The notes beneath the pieces are model-generated. The model ran no database searches. It had not been told where the DNA came from and was given only the letters and a program-made list of their open reading frames with translations. From positions 124,001-188,000 of the forward strand of contig NZ_CP025057.1 of NCBI RefSeq assembly GCF_002813555.1: a stretch of 64,000 nt of DNA, given 5' to 3'. Made by a program: the position numbers and the translations under genes. This document shows, piece by piece, positions 35,533 through 46,409 of this stretch (the first letter of the stretch is position 1; every line of letters begins with the position of its first letter). The DNA comes from Spiroplasma floricola 23-6. Its GTDB lineage: Bacteria > Bacillota_I > Bacilli_A > Mycoplasmatales > Mycoplasmataceae.

Positions 35533-35714
35533 AAATAAAAATATAAAATTTTTTTAAAATTTATTAAAAATGAAAAATAGACTTTTTATTTTCATTTTTT
35601 CTATTAATCACTTTTATAAAAGATTGCTTTTTTAATTTTATAAATTAATATTTTATTATAACAATCATGTCTTAAGGTTGGTAGGGTGGGATGCTGAAAG
35701 AAAGGTATTTGTAT

Positions 35715-36614
35715 ATGTTAAAACTTTTAAGTCTTATAGGAACATTAGGAGTTTCTACTTCTGCTGTTGCACCAGTTATTATGTTAGAACAAAATATTAA
35801 TGATAATATTTCAATTCGTGTTGAGGCAGGAATAATGAGAGTTAATGTAAATAATAGTAAACATTTTGATAAAGATGGAAAAATAATTGTTGGTACATAT
35901 GATTATAAAGAAGTGCTAATAAAAGCAATTGAAGAACAAAGAGCCTTCAACAAATCAAATAATGTAACTAATTTTGTCATTAAAAATAGTATTGTAAGAC
36001 TTCCAGGTATATCATTTGATGGAACAATAAGAGTTGGTCGAACACTTACAGAAGTAATTAATGCAAAGAATTATGAAATATTGAATATGAATGTTACAGT
36101 AGATAAACTAGACAATTGAGGAAATTATACTTATGCTATTAGTTATGAAGCTATAGCAGATGGAAAAATGATTGGAGAAAATCTTTATGGCTATCAAAGA
36201 CTTCAATCTTTAGCTGATTTCCAAATTAAACCTGGATATAATATGATATTTGAAACAGAATATAATATATCAGAATCAATTGAACATACTGATACATTAT
36301 TTAACTCAAATATTTATTTACCAGATTTAGGTATAAATTTTTTATCAGAACAAATAATTGACATGTTTAATTCTGAAAAAAATACTTTAAATGATCAAGC
36401 AATTAAATATATTAATTCTACTTTAAAAGTTAAACTGAATGTTGTTGAATCTTTAAATGTTTATAAAGCAGTTTCTAATAATAATGATTCTTTTTCAATA
36501 GGAGAAGCTTATTCAAATCAAGAATATGTAAAAGATCAATATTTTTATGTCTCATTTAGTTCAAAAGATGCAATTGGAACATTTAATATGTTAGTAAGTA
36601 ATAACAAAAAATAA
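35715..36614 (+). CDS. Secreted protein with lipoprotein-like signal but no lipobox Cys (299 aa)
   Basis: The N-terminus (MLKLLSLIGTLGVSTSAVAP) matches the usual Spiroplasma signal sequence, but the VVAC lipobox is replaced by VAPVIM, so it should be cleaved or anchored by other means. The start at 35715 is chosen for the signal and for GAAAGG at 35700. An in-frame ATG at 35691 adds eight residues and has a poorly spaced site. The remainder is rich in Asn, Ile and Lys with two similar beta-rich halves (VNVNNSKHF; VKLNVVESL). I do not recognise a domain. A terminator follows. Confidence 0.7.
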
Positions 36615-36619
36615 AGCAT

Positions 36620-36651
36620 AAAAATGATTTATATCTATAAATCATTTTTTT
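36620..36651 (+). terminator. Terminator after the secreted protein
   Basis: AAAATGATTTATA and its complement with a two- to three-base loop, then T7. Confidence 0.85.
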
Positions 36652-36738: not shown

Positions 36739-36744
36739 TATAAT
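36739..36744 (+). promoter_or_regulatory. Extended -10 of the helicase operon
   Basis: TGTTATAAT, 31 bases before the start codon, with an AGGGGG site in between at 36760. Confidence 0.5.
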
Positions 36745-36774
36745 AAGAAGAGTGTAAGATAGGGGGCCAATTTT

Positions 36775-39700
36775 ATGTCAAACATAATTGAAAATAATGG
36801 TGTTAAAGAAATAATTTTGGATTTCTCATTTTTACAAAATGTTCAATTCAAAGATAACCCAGCAACTTTAGATCAAATAATAGAAGAGTTAGGTATTAAA
36901 GGCATTTCAACATGTTTAGATTTTCAAAACTTTTTAAGAAACTCTCTTGCTAAAAAATCATTTATATGTCTTTTAGATGATAAAACTAAGCAGTTCTCTA
37001 AAAAAGATAAAAATAAAACTTCATATAATGGAATTTTAAGAATAGAGTTTGATTTTAAAAATCAATCATTGTTATCTGATGGAACTTATTTAGGATTTTA
37101 TGTTAATATAGATACCAAAAATGCATCATTAACAATTAGCTCTATATTTGTAACAAGGTTAAAGCCAATTGCTCAAGAGTTTGAAACAATGATTCAAGAA
37201 TCACAAATACTTATAATAAGAAATCAAGGACAAATCAAAGATGATGAGTTAATAAGACGAAATGTATTAAATTCATCAAATATTTTAGAAATTGGAAAAC
37301 TATTATCAACTTTTGAAGAAGAAAGAGAAAGATGATCAAACTATTTAGACTTTTGTGAAGATTTACTTAAACTAGAAAGAAAAAAGTCGCTTCCATATTT
37401 AGGTGTTAATTATTCAAAAGCAATTAAAATTGATAAACTTCATTTTGAGAGCGACTTATTAACATATGAAAAAAAGAATTTAAAATCAAAAAGTCTTAAA
37501 TATTTAGATATAAAAGCAGAGAGCTTATTAAAAAGTAAAGATATATCTTTTGATTTTACAAATATTGTAGTATTAGATTTACTTGTAGATGATATTGATA
37601 AGGTTAATAAAATAAAAAAGACAAAGGAACTCTCATTAGTTTCTATTAATAAAAATAAAAATATTAAAACTACTCATGAACTTGTTAAAAATATTCATGA
37701 TATTTTTGATTTTGATTTTGAAAAAACTAAAGATATGCAAAATATTTTAAATGTTTCTACAATGTTAGGAGTTTTAGAAGACTCAATTAGTTTTGAAGAA
37801 TATTGATTAAAAAATATGGAAACCATTTTTCTTGGTGAAAATAAGGAGCTAGAGTTTTTATTAAAAGAAAATCCAAGAGAAATGAAAGAATGACAAATAA
37901 AAAAAATAGTTTTTGAAATTGAACAAGAATTTAATGAAGAAATATTTGAAGTAAAAAATAATTTGGACTATTTAAGTTCAGGTTATATTGCCTATACAGG
38001 AATTGGAGATGATATATTAATTGAACGCTCTAAACAGGTTATTAAAAAAATATCTGAGGGAAATACTAAAAATCCATATCTTGTAAATTACTTATTTAAT
38101 ACAAAATTAGTTGAATTATCTGAATTATCAGATGATATTAAAATTAATGATGAAGAGTTTCAATTTGATTTAAACTATGAGCAAAAAGAAGCTGTTAGAA
38201 AAGCTGTAAATACAAAAGATATTTTTATTTTACAAGGTCCACCAGGAACAGGAAAAACACAGGTAATATGTGAAATAATAACTCAATTATCAAAATTAAA
38301 TAGGAAAGTATTACTATCAAGTCAAAATCATGAAGCATTAAGAAATGTAGTTAATAGATTACCACTAGATCCAAACTTAAATAAAATTAGATTAACAAAT
38401 CAATTAAATTTAAAAACACAAGATACTAATAATTTTTCTCCTGATAGAGTTTTATACAATTATTATAAATCAATTGGTAAAAAGGCATTTGATGACATGA
38501 GTAATGATGAAAAAACAATTGAGGAGTTTTATTCTTATAAAAGTGATTTAGAGAATTTAATTAATATAAATAAAAGTTTTAATCAAAATAATAAGCAAAT
38601 AAAAACTTTACAAGAGGAAATTGATAAATTAAATAGAGAAATAATCTCTTTTAAAGAAAAAAAATTGGATACTATAAGAATTAAAAACAGCTTAAAAGAA
38701 GAGTTAATTAATATAGAAAATTTAATAGAAGTTTTAGAGACTAAAGATTTTTATTCAACAGTTAAAGTAAGTGAAAAAATTGAAGAATGTTTTAAAAATA
38801 CAATACAATATGAATTAGAGAATTTCATTTATAAAAATCTAAACTTTAATCCAAAGGATTTTCAAAATATTTATTTTTTAATAAAAGAAGTTGTAAATGA
38901 GATTTATTATAAAAATGAATTATTTATTGAAATAAGAAACGCTAAAAATAATGCCAATAAATTTAGAAGAAATGCAGATTTTGATTTAGCAGAAAAAGAA
39001 GAAAGTAAAATTTTGGGTTTCCAACAAATTATAAATCTGGATAATAGAATTACCGAATTGGAAAATCTATTCTCAATTTTTATTTCATCTTTAAAAAATT
39101 TAAAAATGGAAGCTGAGTTAGATTTACAAGATGAAGTAAATATAAACTTATTTGACTCTGATTTAAATCAACTTGAAATTAAAAAAAATGAATTAGTGAT
39201 TTCAAGAAATAACTTAATTGAAAATTCAGGTGGAAATACAAAAGAACTTAGAGATTTAATCAAAACAGTAAATTATAAATTTAATATAAATTTAGGTTTA
39301 GATGCTATGGATTTGGAGAATCAAGTTAAAGGAGAATTAAAAAAACTTGAAACTAAATTGCAACAAAGTAAGAAAAGAAAAGAAAATTTCTTTCAGATTT
39401 ATACAGAAATAATTAAATATCTAAAAGATAACTATAAAATAATAAATAATTTTAAAGAGGAATTAGCTTCAGCAGATTTTACAAATCAAATGTTTAAAGA
39501 TAGTCAAAGATATATAAAAACAGTTTTAGATAATCTAGTTAATGTTTACTCCATGACTTTAACTTCAACAAACTTATTTAAATTTAATAAGAATAATTTT
39601 GCCAATAAACTTGGATTAGAGGAGTTAAATTTAAAAAATATGAATGTTGATGTTGTTATTATTGATGAAGCGTCTAAAGCAACTCTATTAGAAATTTTAA

Positions 39701-40635
39701 TGCCATTGATTTATGGTAAGTCTTTAATTTTAGTTGGAGATTATAGACAACTTCCTCCTATTCTTAAGTTACAACCAAATGATGTTGAACAAGTAAATGA
39801 ATTTTTTAATAAAGATTATAGTTATAATTTGATGTATGAGTTACTTGATGAGTCAGCTTTTAAAAAGTTAATTAGTGCAGGTAATAAAACAATAACTACT
39901 TTTTTAAAAACCCAATATAGAAGTCATGAACAAATTATGAATGTTGTTAATAAATTTTATGAAGGAAATTTGAAAGTAGATTCTCAAGTTAGTAATCAGA
40001 AAAGACATGATTTAAAAATAACTAATAGCTCTGGAAAAAATATTATTGATTCACGCAGTTCTGTTTATTGAATTGACTCATCTAAAAACTTACAAAATGA
40101 AATAAATTTTGAACAAGGAGAAGAATATTCAACAAGCTTATTTAATGAATTAGAATTACAGATAACTAAAAAACTTTTAAATAAAATAAATGAGGCAGTT
40201 AAAGAAAAAAACTCAAAAATAAAACCTTCAGTAGCTATAATAAGTTTTTATGGTTTACATGTAGAGAAATTAAAAAGAGAAATAAATTTAAAAAAATATG
40301 AAAATATTAATATTATTATTAACACAGTTGATGATTTTCAAGGTAAAGAAGCTGATTATGTTTTAGTTAACATTGTAAGAAATCCAGAAAAATTATCAAA
40401 CAAATCGGGAAGAGAATTTTTAAAAAAATATGAGAGAATAAATGTTGCTTTTTCAAGAGCAAGAGAATTATTAATAATTATTGGTGCTCAAAGAGCTGTT
40501 AATGATATTACTGTTAAAATTCCAACTATAGAGAATCCTAATGTTTCAAACAGTTATCAAGTTTATGCAGATATAATTGCAAAGTTGGATTTTGAAGGTT
40601 GTCTATTAAAACCCATTGATATTTTGGAGGACTAA
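36775..40635 (+). CDS. Upf1-like SF1 helicase, first gene of an uncharacterised operon (1286 aa)
   Basis: DNA or RNA helicase of superfamily 1B (AAA_11/AAA_12 type). The N-terminal ~460 residues are unassigned. Walker A GPPGTGKT is at 488-495. The Walker B sequence VVIIDEAS has its Asp at 964, followed by motif III GDYRQLPP (988-995), motif IV QYRSHEQI, motif V DDFQGKEADYV and motif VI VAFSRAREL. About 470 residues, largely coiled coil, separate motif I from II, much longer than in UvrD-type enzymes. All catalytic motifs look intact. The next gene starts three bases after the stop. Upf1-like helicases recur in bacterial conflict systems, but the exact role here is unknown. Confidence 0.88.
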
Positions 40636-40638
40636 AAA

Positions 40639-42906
40639 ATGATATTTAATAAAATTGAAATTCTATATGATAAATTATATTTAGCTTTAAAAATTAAATA
40701 TTCAGAAATTAGAAAACCAACATTTATGGAATTTTTGATTTTATTAATTATTATAGAATATCCAAATAAAAGAAAAACTCTATCAGAAATTTTGAAACAG
40801 GATTTTAATATATTAAATCAAACAGTGTTTGAAAAAGCTTTAAGAGATTTAATTAACTTTAAAGTTATTGAGGTAAATAAAATTAGACTGAGTGTTGATT
40901 TATTAAATATGAATATTCCAATTAATAATTTTAAAATAAAAGAACAAATTGAACAAAAATTCAAAACTGGAGACTATACAATTTCTCAAGATAATAAGAC
41001 TCAAGATTTTAAATATTTTTTTGATCCAATTACAAAGGAAATAGAAGTTTTAAAAGAAATTAACTGAGATAAAAGAATAACTGATTTAAAATTTAGCCAC
41101 AAAATTAATATTCCAGTTGAGTATTCACAAATTAAAAATAAAAATTTAATTTCATCTAAACTAAGTGAATTAGTTAAACAAGATCAAAATTTATTTGGAG
41201 AAAACTGTGTTTTAAAAAATATCTCAATTGACGATGAATTAATAGAAAATATTAGAGCATTTGAAGAATACATAAAAACAGAAAATGTCGCAATAGAAGC
41301 TTCAATAGAAATTTTTAATAACGGGGCTTTTAAAATTAAAACAGATAATAACTTCTTTAATAATTATCTAAGATTAAACTCTGAAATCTCATTAGAAATT
41401 TTAAAAGATGTTTTAAATAAATATGATGAAAAATTAAAAAAAATATTTGTTCCGGAGATCTCTTTTAAAGACAAACACAAATTTATTTCATCTCCAGAAC
41501 TGTTATCTAATTTAAATGTGAAAACAAATTATAATTTACTTTTAATAAATGATCAATTTATTAAGTCAGATACAGAGATTATAAAGAATAAAGATTTTAC
41601 TAAAAATATTCAAATTATTATTTTTTATAACTCTAAAAGAAATACTAAAGTTACAGATATAGTTGATGACAAATTAATCTTTTATGTTGATTATATTGAT
41701 AATGAAGTTTTGCAATCAAACTCATTTATTTATTTAGATTCTCAAAATTTAATGAATGGTTTTTTAGTAGCAAATAAACTAGTTGAAATTATAAATTTGA
41801 ATATTCCTGTTTTTTTCTTATACAAAAATCCAACAGATCCTTTAAACTTAGTTTCACTATTTAAATCAAATATTAAAAATGCTTTAGAAAAGTTTGAACA
41901 TTCTTTATTAAATTCAAATTATAAAACTTCAATGAGCATATATATAATTTTGGAGAGACTTAGTTTAGAAAGGGAAGTAATTGCAATTCTAGAAAAATTT
42001 TTATTAGATACTGTAAATAGTGGATCAAACTATATTGAAATGAGAAATTATTTATTAGAATCAGAAAATAGAAAATTATCTTTAACTCTTGAAAAAATAG
42101 CAAAAGATTTAATTATAGATATTTCAAAAAATAAATCAGATGAAGAGATGTTTGAGATAATTAAAAATTATGAATTTAAAGACTCAAAAAATATATTAGA
42201 TATTTTTAATAAAATTGATGTAGAAAATAATATTGAAAATATATATAAAATGAATCATTATTTACAGGAAAATTCAATTGATGGCTGAAAATTTAATGTA
42301 AAGAACTCTTTGATAGTATTAACTAATTATTTTAAAAATAATAATAGAGCTGAAATGTTTAATGATAATAAATATAACTCAGATGTTTGAATTCAACATG
42401 CAAATACCTTAAATTTAATTGGAAAACTAACTAAAGAGTTGTATATGTCTAACTATCAATTTGTAGAAGATAATTATAGTAGATTATTGACATCTTTAAT
42501 AGATTTAGTTAAAAACTCATTAGATATAAAAAAACTTGATACTTATTTAATTAATTTGTCTGAATCTCTAGTTGATTTTTATAAAACATATTACAAGTAT
42601 AAAATTACTGAACTTCAAACTCTTTTAAATACTAGTATAAATTACAAAGTCCAACTTATTGCAGGAAAATATATTAATAATATTGAACAAGCTTTAAATA
42701 AATTTTTAGATAAAAGTATATATAATATGCCAATTGAGTTAAAATTAGAATGAGTAAAAAATATTGAAAATAAATCAGATGAAGTTGAAAAAATTTTAAA
42801 AGATGATGAACAAACTTATAAAATAGCTCTTAATATAATATTTGGTAAAAAAAGAGAATATACAGAAGATGATTTAATAAAATATACTACTTTATTTGGA
42901 GGATAA
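40639..42906 (+). CDS. Uncharacterised protein of the helicase operon (755 aa)
   Basis: I do not recognise this protein. Residues about 28-80 (FMEFLILLIIIEYPNKRKTL and following) have the helix-turn-strand pattern of a winged-helix DNA-binding domain, ending DLINFKVIEV. A central alternating strand/helix region (NIQIIIFYNSKRN; NSFIYLDSQNLMNGFLVANK; IPVFFLYKN) resembles a PLD-nuclease or Toprim-like alpha/beta fold without clear catalytic residues. The C-terminal ~350 residues are helical. GGAGG within the helicase's last codons is the ribosome binding site, so the two genes are translationally coupled. No signal peptide or membrane segment. Confidence 0.75.
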
Positions 42907-42911
42907 TAGTT

Positions 42912-44006
42912 ATGAGTATGACAGCTGAAGAAATTTTAGTTAATTGTGAAAAGCAATTTAATTTTATAAAAAAAGATATTGATTTTTTAATAAAGTATAT
43001 CAATCAATTAATAGATGAATGTAAACAAATTGATAGTTCAGGATATTTTAAAAAACAAATAGAGCAAATCTTAGAAGAATTAACTAAAGAACAAATGGAT
43101 TTAGCTAAAAATACCTATGAAAGAGAAGTCTCTTCTAACACTCATGTTGCAATTGAAACATATAATGAAATTCAAAGATATGCAGAAAGAAAAAGAGAAG
43201 TTATTGCCGATTTTAAAGCAAAAGTATTCTGTTTCAAAAAAGATGTTCTTGAAAAAGAACAAGAAAATTTATTAAAAGCATTAGATAAAAATGTATTTGA
43301 AGATATAGAAAACTTAAAAAACTCTTTGATTGCTAAGTATTCTAACTCTGAAGATAAATTATATATAAAAAGATTGTTTGAACAAAACCAGCACACTTTG
43401 ATTAATAAAAAAGACAATGAGTTATATGACTTTGTTTTGCAAAATTTAAAAAAATATAAAGCCTCAAATAGTTCTATTGTAAAAGAAGTTGTTTCTTCTT
43501 CAATTGATCTTTACAAAGATGATCAAGATATTGTAAATTCTATAAAACAAGATGCAAAAGAATTTATGAGTTTAATTAACTTAATTAATTTACAAGGTAA
43601 TATTAAAGATTATTTTCTGAAATCATCAAAAACAGCAGAGCAAGAAGCTGTAAGAAAAGATAATGTAATAAAAATTGTTAAAGCTATTAGAGAGGTTGGG
43701 TATATTGTTAATGAAGACAATATTAGAAAACTAGCGGAAAAAAATTTAGTTCTAATTCATGGAGAAAAGTTAAGTGGGGAAACTGCAGACTTTGCTGTAA
43801 GATTAGATGGAAGTTTTGTTTATAATTGAGAAGGTTTTGAAGATCATAAACATGATGTTGATGCTCAAAATTTTCTTAATAAACTTAAAGAATTTAATCT
43901 TCACTCTAGTGATGAATTTAAAAAACAATATAGAGAACCAAAATATATTGCTAAAAATAAAAAAATAATTAAGGATAAAAATACTAATTCTAATTCAAGT
44001 AAGTAG
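42912..44006 (+). CDS. Uncharacterised coiled-coil protein of the helicase operon (364 aa)
   Basis: I do not recognise this protein. The first ~150 residues are charged and heptad-rich (EQILEELTKEQMDLAK), strongly suggesting a long coiled coil; residues ~150-300 are helical. The tail, after VLIHGEKLSGETADFAVRL, is polar and ends in a Lys/Asn-rich stretch. The GGAGG site lies in the end of the preceding gene, five bases away. Possible scaffold or adaptor for the AAA+ ATPase that follows (inference only). Confidence 0.72.
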
Positions 44007-44014
44007 GTGAGAAA

Positions 44015-45820
44015 ATGAGTGTAAAAAGAGAATTAAATCAGTTAAAAAATTTAATAGGTATTAAAAAAGCCATTATTATTGAAGGAAATATAGATGATAT
44101 TTATGAGTTCGAGGGTAATTACATTAATATTCATGAAATTATAATGAATATTTTTGATCAAAAGAATTATTTGGATAAATTTGTTTTTGATCAAAATTCA
44201 GGCTTAAAAGGAAAAAAGATATCTAATTTAATTTTACACTCAGTTTCTGAAAATCAAGGTGACTCTATTTCAAATGATTTTGAAGAGTTATTTTCTAATG
44301 ACAATGAGTCTGAAAGTTCTGATTCTTTAGTGCTAAAAAAACCGATTGATTTTTTTAAGATTTTAAATAAGAATATTAATAGAGAAGATGAAAAAAAAGT
44401 TGGTTTTATAGCAGATTATACAAATTATGTTTTTAGTGATCAGGGATTGGATGTTGATGATAGAAGTGTTCTTACAGAATTTTCAAAAACATTAAAAGAA
44501 TCTAATTTTTTAATTTCCAAAATTGATGAATTAACTAACTGTATAATTTTTTTAACTAAAAAAATCAATCAGTTACCACCAAGTTTATATTTAGATAATC
44601 CAGAAATAATAATATTAACTTTACCAAAACCAAGTAGAGATGAAAGAAAAGAATTTTTAGCAACAATTAAACCAAGAGTTCAAGTGATAGATATAGCAAG
44701 TGAATTTAACAATATTGTTGATGCAACAGAAGGTTGAACTTTGAAAGAAATCTCACATTTTGCAAAATTTAGTTGCAATTTTGAAAGCCCCTTAAAGTTT
44801 AATAAAATGTTCAATATTTATAATTATGGAGAAAAAGTTTCTCCATGAGAAGAATTAAGTTATGAAAAAATGTTGAAGATTAAAGAACAACTTTCATCAA
44901 AAGTTATTGGACAAGATGAAGCAATAGAAAAAGTAGCGAAAGTTATTTATAAGGCATATACTGGTTTAACTGGTATAACTTATTCTTCAAAAAGAAGTAA
45001 ACCAAAAGGAACTTTATTCTTTGTTGGCCCAACAGGAACTGGTAAAACAGAATTGGCAAAAGCTATTACAACTTTTCTTTTTAACGATGAAGCAAATCTA
45101 ATTAGATTTGACATGTCAGAATATGGACAAGAAAACTCAGATCAGAAATTAATAGGAGCACCTCCCGGTTATGTTGGTTTTGAAGGTGGAGGACAACTTA
45201 CAAACTCTGTAAAAGCAAGACCATTTTCAGTAATTCTATTTGATGAAATTGAAAAGGCAAACCCAAAAATATTTGATAAGTTTTTACAAATATTAGAGGA
45301 TGGTAGATTAACAGATAATACAGGACAAACAGTTAGTTTTAGTGAAACTTTTATTATCTTTACTTCAAATATAGGAGCAGCTGATGTAAATCCAAATCAA
45401 AACAAAGAGAATGTTTATAATGAATTTATTAAAAGAGTTCAAGATCATTTTACAAATGAGTTAAATAGACCAGAACTTTTAGGAAGATTTGGAAACAATA
45501 TTGTTCCATTTAATTTCATAAGTGATTTAAGTTTAAAATCTAAAATTATTCGCCAAAAAGTAAAACCAATACAAATTGCAATCTATGAAAAATATAAAGC
45601 AGAATTACATATTGATTTAAATGATCAAAATTTAATTGCAATTATTTTAAGAAATGCAGATGAGAGACGTGGAGGACGTGATGTGTTAAACTCATTAGAA
45701 ACAAATTTAGTTGATCCTCTCTCAGAATTTATTTTTCATAATTTACAAAATATTAGACAAGGAACTAAAATTTTAACTTCTCATAAAGAGGGAAAAATTA
45801 ATTTTATAATAAATGGCTAA
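44015..45820 (+). CDS. ClpB/ClpA-like AAA+ ATPase with degenerate first module (601 aa)
   Basis: Two AAA+ modules. Module 1 (about residues 1-270) has no Walker A lysine: its first strand reads GIKKAIIIEGNIDDIY, and the Walker B-like segment is VGFIADYTNYV, so it is probably non-catalytic. Module 2 is a Clp D2 domain: IGQDEAIEKVAKVI, Walker A GPTGTGKT (338-345), pore loop GAPPGYVGFE, Walker B VILFDEIE (406-413), sensor 1 IIFTSN and RRGGRDV in the C-terminal lid. The classical ClpB N-domain and M-domain are absent, so it is not the housekeeping chaperone. A threading or remodelling role is expected. The next gene overlaps by eight bases. Confidence 0.87.
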
Positions 45821-46409
45821 TTTAAATATTGGAAAATTTTTAATGAATAGTGAAATTGAAGGTCCTGGAACAAGATTTGTAATATGATTTCAAGGATGCA
45901 ATATTGGGTGTAGAGGATGTTCAAATCAAGAACTACTTGCACTAGAAAAAAAAATGTTTATGCCAAATGAATTTATTTATGAGAAAATATTAGAAGCAAA
46001 GAAAAAATTTAATATTGAGGGTATAACTTTAATAGGGGGAGAACCCTTTTTACAGCCTGATGGTTTAAAAGAACTTGTTCAGTGGAGTCAAAAAAATAAT
46101 TTAACAGTAATTTGTTTTACGGGATATATATATGAAAATTTACTAGAAGAACATAAAGAAATACTAGAGTGCATTGATATATTAATTGATGGACCTTTTA
46201 TTATGAAACTGTTAGATAAAAATAGAAGATTAATTGGAAGTAAAAACCAAAGAGTTATAAAAATAACAAGTGTGTATAAAGATTGTGATTATTTTGATAA
46301 ACCTCATTCAGAAGTAGAAATTCAAATTTATAACAATAGAATTTCAATGAATGGTGATGGTGTTGTTTTCGATAATGAAGATGGAGAATTTAATTTCAAT
46401 ATAAAGTAG
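45813..46409 (+). CDS. NrdG-like radical-SAM protein of the helicase operon (198 aa)
   Basis: Small radical S-adenosylmethionine enzyme. A CxxxCxxC cluster motif is formed by C29, C33 and C36 (CNIGCRGC), followed by the GGEPFLQP motif that contacts SAM. Overall it resembles the anaerobic ribonucleotide reductase activase NrdG, but no nrdD-like glycyl-radical protein lies nearby. Instead it overlaps the AAA+ gene and appears to be part of that unit. Its target is probably a protein encoded in or near the operon. No clear ribosome binding site precedes its ATG, so expression depends on coupling. Confidence 0.85.

Follow-up and report, generated by a model that had tools for sequence, protein, structure and literature searches.

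A conserved five-gene unit of Spiroplasma floricola combining a Upf1-like helicase, a ClpB-like ATPase and a radical-SAM enzyme, with a possible origin in a mobile conflict system

Five closely packed genes of Spiroplasma floricola 23-6 encode a Upf1-like helicase, two proteins of no evident family, a ClpB-like AAA+ ATPase and an NrdG-like radical-SAM enzyme, which raises the question of whether such dissimilar products form a single machine and what this machine would act on. The window, that is, the whole stretch of 64,000 nucleotides analysed here (NZ_CP025057.1, positions 124,001 to 188,000), includes them as follows, with positions counted from its first letter.

36739 to 36774, + strand: leader 5' of gene 1, with a -10-like TATAAT (36739-36744) and a ribosome-binding-like AGGGGG stretch, from reading of the sequence
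36775 to 40635, + strand: gene 1, 1286-aa SF1B helicase of the Upf1/IGHMBP2-like type (Pfam AAA_11/AAA_12, PADLOC MkoA, PDB matches, motif survey)
40639 to 42906, + strand: gene 2, 755-aa protein of an effector-carrier family (profile and motif comparison with relatives)
42912 to 44006, + strand: gene 3, 364-aa protein with the conserved C-terminal segment GETADFAVRLDGSFVYNWEGFEDHKHD (alignment, motif survey)
44015 to 45820, + strand: gene 4, 601-aa AAA+ ATPase with a ClpB D2-like C-terminal domain (Pfam AAA_2, ClpB D2)
45813 to 46409, + strand: gene 5, 198-aa NrdG/PFL-activase-like radical-SAM enzyme (Pfam Fer4_12, Radical_SAM), overlapping gene 4 by 8 bases

All five ORFs are read with genetic code 4, in which UGA encodes Trp, and this reading exactly reproduces the coordinates, strand, gene sizes and gaps of 3, 5, 8 and -8 bases given in a preliminary description; reading with table 11 breaks every one of them, with 4, 4, 1, 2 and 1 in-frame TGA. 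Pfam likewise agrees with the domains first proposed for genes 1, 4 and 5 and with the absence of a family for the 755-aa and 364-aa proteins, neither of which has a Pfam or NCBIfam match. One promoter-like element before gene 1 and no terminator within the unit had also been claimed. The TATAAT is indeed present and a sequence scan found no sense-strand terminator inside the five genes; however, the region is AT-rich and holds no more promoter-like hexamers than chance would give (79 observed vs 84.6 expected from shuffled sequence).

The gene order is the same wherever the unit is found: Upf1-like helicase, variable protein, gene 3, ClpB-like AAA+, NrdG-like radical SAM. In neighbourhoods of about 18 kb, it is kept in all Spiroplasma-type genomes examined. 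Two loci carry extra genes between genes 3 and 4, and in one other the sequence is of low quality and the ORFs are broken. Across the family, gene 3 was detected in 38 of 60 genomes, these being 38 of the 39 genomes of five genera (20/20, 13/14, 3/3, 1/1 and 1/1), and in none of the 21 genomes of seven other genera of the same family. We infer that the former are the Spiroplasma genera of GTDB and the latter those of the Entomoplasma, Mesoplasma and mycoides type. Besides the single genome of the five-genus clade devoid of gene 3, two genomes hold an additional four-gene copy. Such a four-gene form (HEL-U755-U364-AAA), without the radical-SAM gene, is scattered in mycoplasmas, where profile alignment reveals distant homology of gene 3 and gene 2 (E 7e-7 and 2e-4, respectively) and where a DNA methylase and a ResIII protein adjoin one copy.

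A search of 346 genomes at class level adds four Bacilli with the unit, one of them with gene 5 split into two ORFs, and a fifth with part of it. The five-gene unit is also found in 1 of 291 Clostridia-class genomes. A Mollicutes genome outside the family carries it as well; the AAA+ there shares 89% identity with that of a Bacilli copy and is nested in the tree among Bacilli copies, which points to a recent transfer from Bacilli. When plasmid proteins were searched with a Bacilli AAA+ query, full-length relatives were returned, and five kinds of proteobacterial plasmid carry the unit, from Photobacterium toruni, Polaromonas naphthalenivorans, Moellerella wisconsensis, Acinetobacter sp. and Leisingera thetidis. 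It is annotated there, in order, as AAA domain-containing, PIN domain-containing, hypothetical, AAA family ATPase and 4Fe-4S single cluster domain-containing proteins. Restriction-modification genes, ArdA, MazF, DarT, integrases and transposases are its neighbours, some of these plasmids are conjugative, and one copy lies near repABC. Gene 3 was found in 0/369 genomes of the class to which Burkholderia belongs, a sample without positive control; 0 of 50,697 phage records match over 80% of the AAA+, and viral sequence searches with genes 2 and 3 return no match. AAA+ alignment scans of genome and viral contigs are dominated by ordinary Clp D2 domains. The co-occurrence check proposed at the outset places the five genes together not only in Spiroplasma-type genomes but also in other Bacilli, in Clostridia and on plasmids of Proteobacteria. 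As the same order recurs in many genomes, the arrangement is far above chance, and its recurrence in distant genomes and plasmids rules out accidental co-directional neighbours.

In the trees of genes 1, 4 and 5, the Spiroplasma-type copies, which are monophyletic and partly syntenic, form one clade with 99% SH-aLRT each time, and the Bacilli copies and the mycoplasma four-gene copies stand apart from it. The congruence of the helicase, AAA+ and radical-SAM trees indicates that the genes of the unit are inherited or travel together, the deeper branching order being unsure because of long branches and composition shifts. The Walker A, Walker B and arginine finger of gene 4, the Walker A of the helicase and the three cysteines of CxxxCxxC in gene 5 are intact in 20/20 Spiroplasma-type copies. 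Calculated against one relative, dN/dS values, rough as dS is near 1, are 0.085 for the AAA+, 0.068 for the radical SAM, 0.14 for the helicase, 0.15 for gene 3 and 0.21 for gene 2, so that genes 4 and 5 are slightly lower than the reference fhs (0.096). The evidence that all five products are parts of one conserved system is strong. The preliminary description had joined helicase, AAA+ ring and radical-SAM enzyme into one machine; the conserved order and the congruent trees uphold the single system, and these three parts fit it. The glycyl-radical role assigned to the last of them finds no support, as detailed below.

Gene 1 displays the helicase motifs GPPGTGKT (Walker A), DEAS and RINVAFSRA and has SMUBP-2, Dna2, Sen1 and Upf1 among its PDB matches. 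It scores 310.8 bits against PADLOC MkoA (E 6e-93) and 189 bits against TIGR00376 (IGHMBP2 family), below the cut-off of 348.9; its N-terminal ~450 aa are without family assignment, and a long insertion is nested in the core. In gene 4, a ClpB D2-like domain starting at residue ~280 follows an N-terminal part of ~280 aa without assignment that is conserved in the family. Its score against TIGR03346 (ClpB) is 266 bits vs a cut-off of 1232, with the D2 region alone aligned (query 282-597), and the nearest PADLOC defence models, PDC-M37B (113 bits) and DolB (79 bits), match mainly over the same common domain.

Gene 2 is the variable member of the unit. In the Spiroplasma-type set, the first ~140 aa are best kept and the C-terminal part evolves fast (12-66% identity). 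Proteobacterial gene 2 proteins end with a PIN_4 domain in 5/5 cases (28-85 bits), and those of the Bacilli type with RN-x3-H in 5/5, which is the RNase motif of HEPN domains. DUF4145, a family of the HEPN superfamily, matches five members of the gene 2 set (best E 4e-5), and RN-x3-H is kept in 2/11 mycoplasma copies. None of 20 Spiroplasma-type copies shows a PIN match or a C-terminal HEPN motif: all 18 copies of the main group are without RN-x3-H, and the two remaining copies yield one match, which is located elsewhere and has no N. The window copy has no R-x4-6-H in its C-terminal 140 aa. RNA cleavage by this copy is therefore unsupported. In profile comparison, the gene 2 proteins of Spiroplasma and of Bacilli align over ~370 columns of the N-terminal part (E 1.7e-7), and those of Bacilli and of Proteobacteria over ~210 columns within the N-terminal ~1-240 (E 1.6e-6), the C-termini not being aligned. 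Since the PIN and HEPN C-termini differ on a common N-terminal region, gene 2 appears to be an adaptor with exchangeable effectors. A PDB profile search with gene 2 gave no match, and single-sequence structure models of genes 2 and 3 (mean pLDDT 36 and 43) are unusable.

Nearly all members of the gene 3 family begin with MS and carry the C-terminal pattern A-x-F-x-V-x-L-D-G-x-x-x-Y-x-F-x-G-Y-E-G, continued by x-x-C-x-K-D in Bacilli and Proteobacteria and by an H-x-H-D-like sequence in the Spiroplasma type; in most relatives the segment displays Y-x-G-x-x-C. A resemblance of gene 3 relatives to DUF2997 is weak (E 0.05) and a hint at most, and in the PDB profile search the matches are weak and involve helical proteins, most of them designed. 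A glycyl-radical site was considered in gene 3 and rejected as unlikely, since several copies, that of the window among them, have D, N or E in place of the glycine of Y-x-G.

The reading that we favour, with a probability of about 0.6, is that the five genes encode one machine derived from a mobile, Mokosh-like conflict system acting on RNA. RNA is proposed as the substrate from what is known of the Upf1, PIN and HEPN families. A constant chassis that exchanges its effectors, a patchy spread and plasmid carriage beside mobile and restriction genes are usual for conflict systems. The ancestral role was probably directed against phages or mobile elements.

For the spiroplasmas themselves, it is conceivable, if on balance doubtful, that the unit is a housekeeping complex devoted to RNA or ribosome surveillance, or to remodelling of a cell-specific assembly, which has kept only its ancestry from a conflict system and no longer has any defence role. 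Indeed, most defence systems do not reach a near-universal vertical presence such as 38/39 genomes of five genera vs 0/21 of the seven others, and the monophyly and partial synteny of the copies, the absence of RNase motifs and the strong constraint on genes 4 and 5 all suit such a function. However, gene 2 evolves fast, as conflict effectors or sensors do, one genome of the clade is without the unit, and two hold the extra four-gene copy.

Carriage on plasmids, in one case near repABC, and a nuclease mounted on an ATPase chassis would suit a module maintaining plasmids or mobile elements by addiction or incompatibility rather than a defence system. This explanation is improbable, because the unit is chromosomal and stable in spiroplasmas and Pfam recognises no antitoxin-like partner among the five proteins.

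Less probable again is a genuine Mokosh system of type I or type II that has gained further genes. The helicase is close to MkoA (311 bits), and two proteobacterial gene 2 proteins match MkoB residues ~9-209 collinearly (E 1e-5 and 1e-4), a weak N-terminal match found in 2/30 gene 2 members. However, Mokosh is defined by a kinase (the serine/threonine kinase MkoB in type I) and/or a PLD-family nuclease, separate or fused (PMC11672841), both missing from the five proteins, and the MkoB family search in the genome sample gives matches from the kinase half only.

Gene 5 bears the cluster motif CNIGCRGC, has PFL-AE among its PDB matches and scores 104.3 bits against TIGR02491 (NrdG), below the cut-off of 126.1. 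The same genome encodes a class III ribonucleotide reductase, with NrdD at 600.0-602.1 kb and NrdG directly after it (pair at 600.0-602.6 kb). The earlier statement that no nrdD-type partner is present thus holds for the neighbourhood and not for the genome. As the NrdD-linked NrdG is above the cut-off (172.6 bits) and gene 5 below it, gene 5 is a second, apparently system-dedicated enzyme, and it is dispensable as an NrdG since NrdD has its own elsewhere. No glycyl-radical partner ORF occurs within the operon, and Gly_radical (PF01228) is absent from the genome in a search with positive controls. The proposed activation of a glycyl-radical subunit is given up on these grounds, namely the lack of PF01228 in the genome, the separate NrdG of NrdD and a gene 3 motif without a suitable invariant glycine. 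That gene 5 is merely the NrdG of the anaerobic reductase, lying in the operon by accident, can be dismissed almost entirely: its NrdG-like family and the NrdD of the genome speak for it, but NrdD is directly followed by its own enzyme, and gene 5, besides its score, groups in the tree with enzymes of five-gene units from other phyla.

In the favoured reading of an RNA-directed machine of conflict-system origin, the Upf1-like helicase would engage foreign or abnormal RNA. Gene 2 would dock on the helicase through its N-terminal region and deliver the effector, a PIN or HEPN domain that would cleave the RNA. Gene 3 may serve as scaffold, with a conserved C-terminal segment that genes 4 and 5 contact or use as substrate, while the ClpB-like AAA+ ring would remodel or reset the gene 2/gene 3 assembly. 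The dedicated radical-SAM enzyme would mature a protein of the system, with the C-terminus of gene 3 as first guess, rather than an external glycyl-radical enzyme; no other RNA-targeting complex known to us employs a radical-SAM activase. As the four-gene form has no radical-SAM gene, the core machine may work without gene 5 in mycoplasmas. In the Spiroplasma-type lineage, the unit would have been fixed early and inherited vertically without a recognisable RNase, so that it would now either work through some other effector or form a standing complex for RNA surveillance or remodelling. The missing RNase motifs, the near-universal presence and the strong constraint on the ATPase and radical-SAM enzyme together suggest an unrecognised effector or a domesticated role.

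More speculatively, the unit may represent an undescribed five-gene immune family in which a Mokosh-like helicase chassis with exchangeable RNases is licensed by a radical-SAM modification and a ClpB-like remodeller, and from which spiroplasmas captured a copy, lost the nuclease and made a lineage-wide RNA-surveillance complex; we regard this version as tentative. The unit would enlarge the helicase-plus-nuclease branch of bacterial immunity by an apparently undescribed conserved system in which the ClpB-like ATPase and the dedicated radical-SAM enzyme are unusual, and of which PIN and HEPN versions occur naturally and allow comparison. Spiroplasmas would possess a nearly universal uncharacterised complex, missing from the other genera of their family, as a mobile conflict system apparently turned into a core genome component.

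No published description of a five-gene system of this kind was found in open-licence literature, in line with the initial remark that no named system with this exact gene order was known. Several known systems have parts in common with it. Gene 1 shares core motifs and PDB matches with the Upf1/IGHMBP2/Sen1 SF1B helicases but differs from the IGHMBP2 family by its sub-cut-off score, its additional N-terminal region and its core insertion. Gene 5 resembles NrdG and the pyruvate formate-lyase activating enzyme, small radical-SAM activases with CxxxCxxC, but is distinguished by its score, the absence of an adjacent glycyl-radical enzyme and its system-specific clade. Dodola (DolA/DolB; PMC11514479), with which PDC-M37 is paired as a duplicate (PMC11811056), includes a ClpB-like AAA+ ATPase in a defence operon, the sole feature in common with the five-gene unit. 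This likeness concerns mainly the common D2 domain; Dodola is a two-gene system without helicase, nuclease carrier or radical SAM, and PADLOC detects no DolA match among the five proteins. Ternary conflict systems associate SF1 helicases with PIN domains and, in one subsystem, a radical-SAM enzyme, the passages of PMC7159879 concerned not describing the five-gene set. A plasmid operon of Aristaeella (kinase/FHA/PP2C/DUF4011-helicase) has a related pair of AAA+ and radical-SAM proteins, but its partners are kinases, FHA and phosphatase, and its AAA+ falls outside the five-gene clade. Mokosh (MkoA/MkoB, MkoC) is built on the same COG1112/Upf1-like helicase chassis, and gene 2 and MkoB possibly have an N-terminal region in common. 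Whereas Mokosh relies on a Ser/Thr kinase or PLD nuclease, neither of which Pfam finds in the five window proteins, the five-gene unit adds the AAA+ ATPase, gene 3 and the radical-SAM enzyme, with a PIN or HEPN effector in its relatives.

Two features lie 5' of the helicase gene that opens the five-gene unit:

window 35691-36614, an ORF of 307 aa directly upstream of the unit
window 36621-36650, an A+T-rich hairpin followed by T's, between this ORF and gene 1

The 307-aa ORF gave no family match, and its position is not conserved in most relatives.

The sibling genus g5 includes two genomes (loci L050 and L052) in which two or three additional genes separate gene 3 of the unit from the AAA+ gene. 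At L032 (G150), ORFs are fragmented over the entire stretch and, because those outside the unit are broken too, the breaks look like sequencing error rather than pseudogenes.

Some Spiroplasma-type genomes include an additional mycoplasma-like four-gene copy, that is, the form without the radical-SAM gene, as found at L060 (G070), L064 (G091), and L070 (G079), the last of which looks decayed. A protein with a Mac-1 domain (PF09028), encoded at L063:4395-6593, adjoins a mycoplasma four-gene copy. The five-gene unit itself has been transferred recently, apparently across genetic codes, the AAA+ protein of L054, from a member of the Mollicutes that reads UGA as Trp, being 89% identical to that of L102, from a member of the Bacilli using the standard code.

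In the window's genome the gene for NrdD stands in tandem with one for a canonical NrdG (G000:C1:600022-602639; L295:5023-7640), and its class III ribonucleotide reductase therefore has an activase of its own. Related AAA+ genes, often accompanied by radical-SAM genes, are also found in other operons, namely L114 on an Aristaeella lactis plasmid and L117-L125, where their partners are Ser/Thr kinases, FHA, PP2C, and a DUF4011 helicase, or else a helicase of ~2100 aa. The AAA+/radical-SAM pair looks like a portable module.
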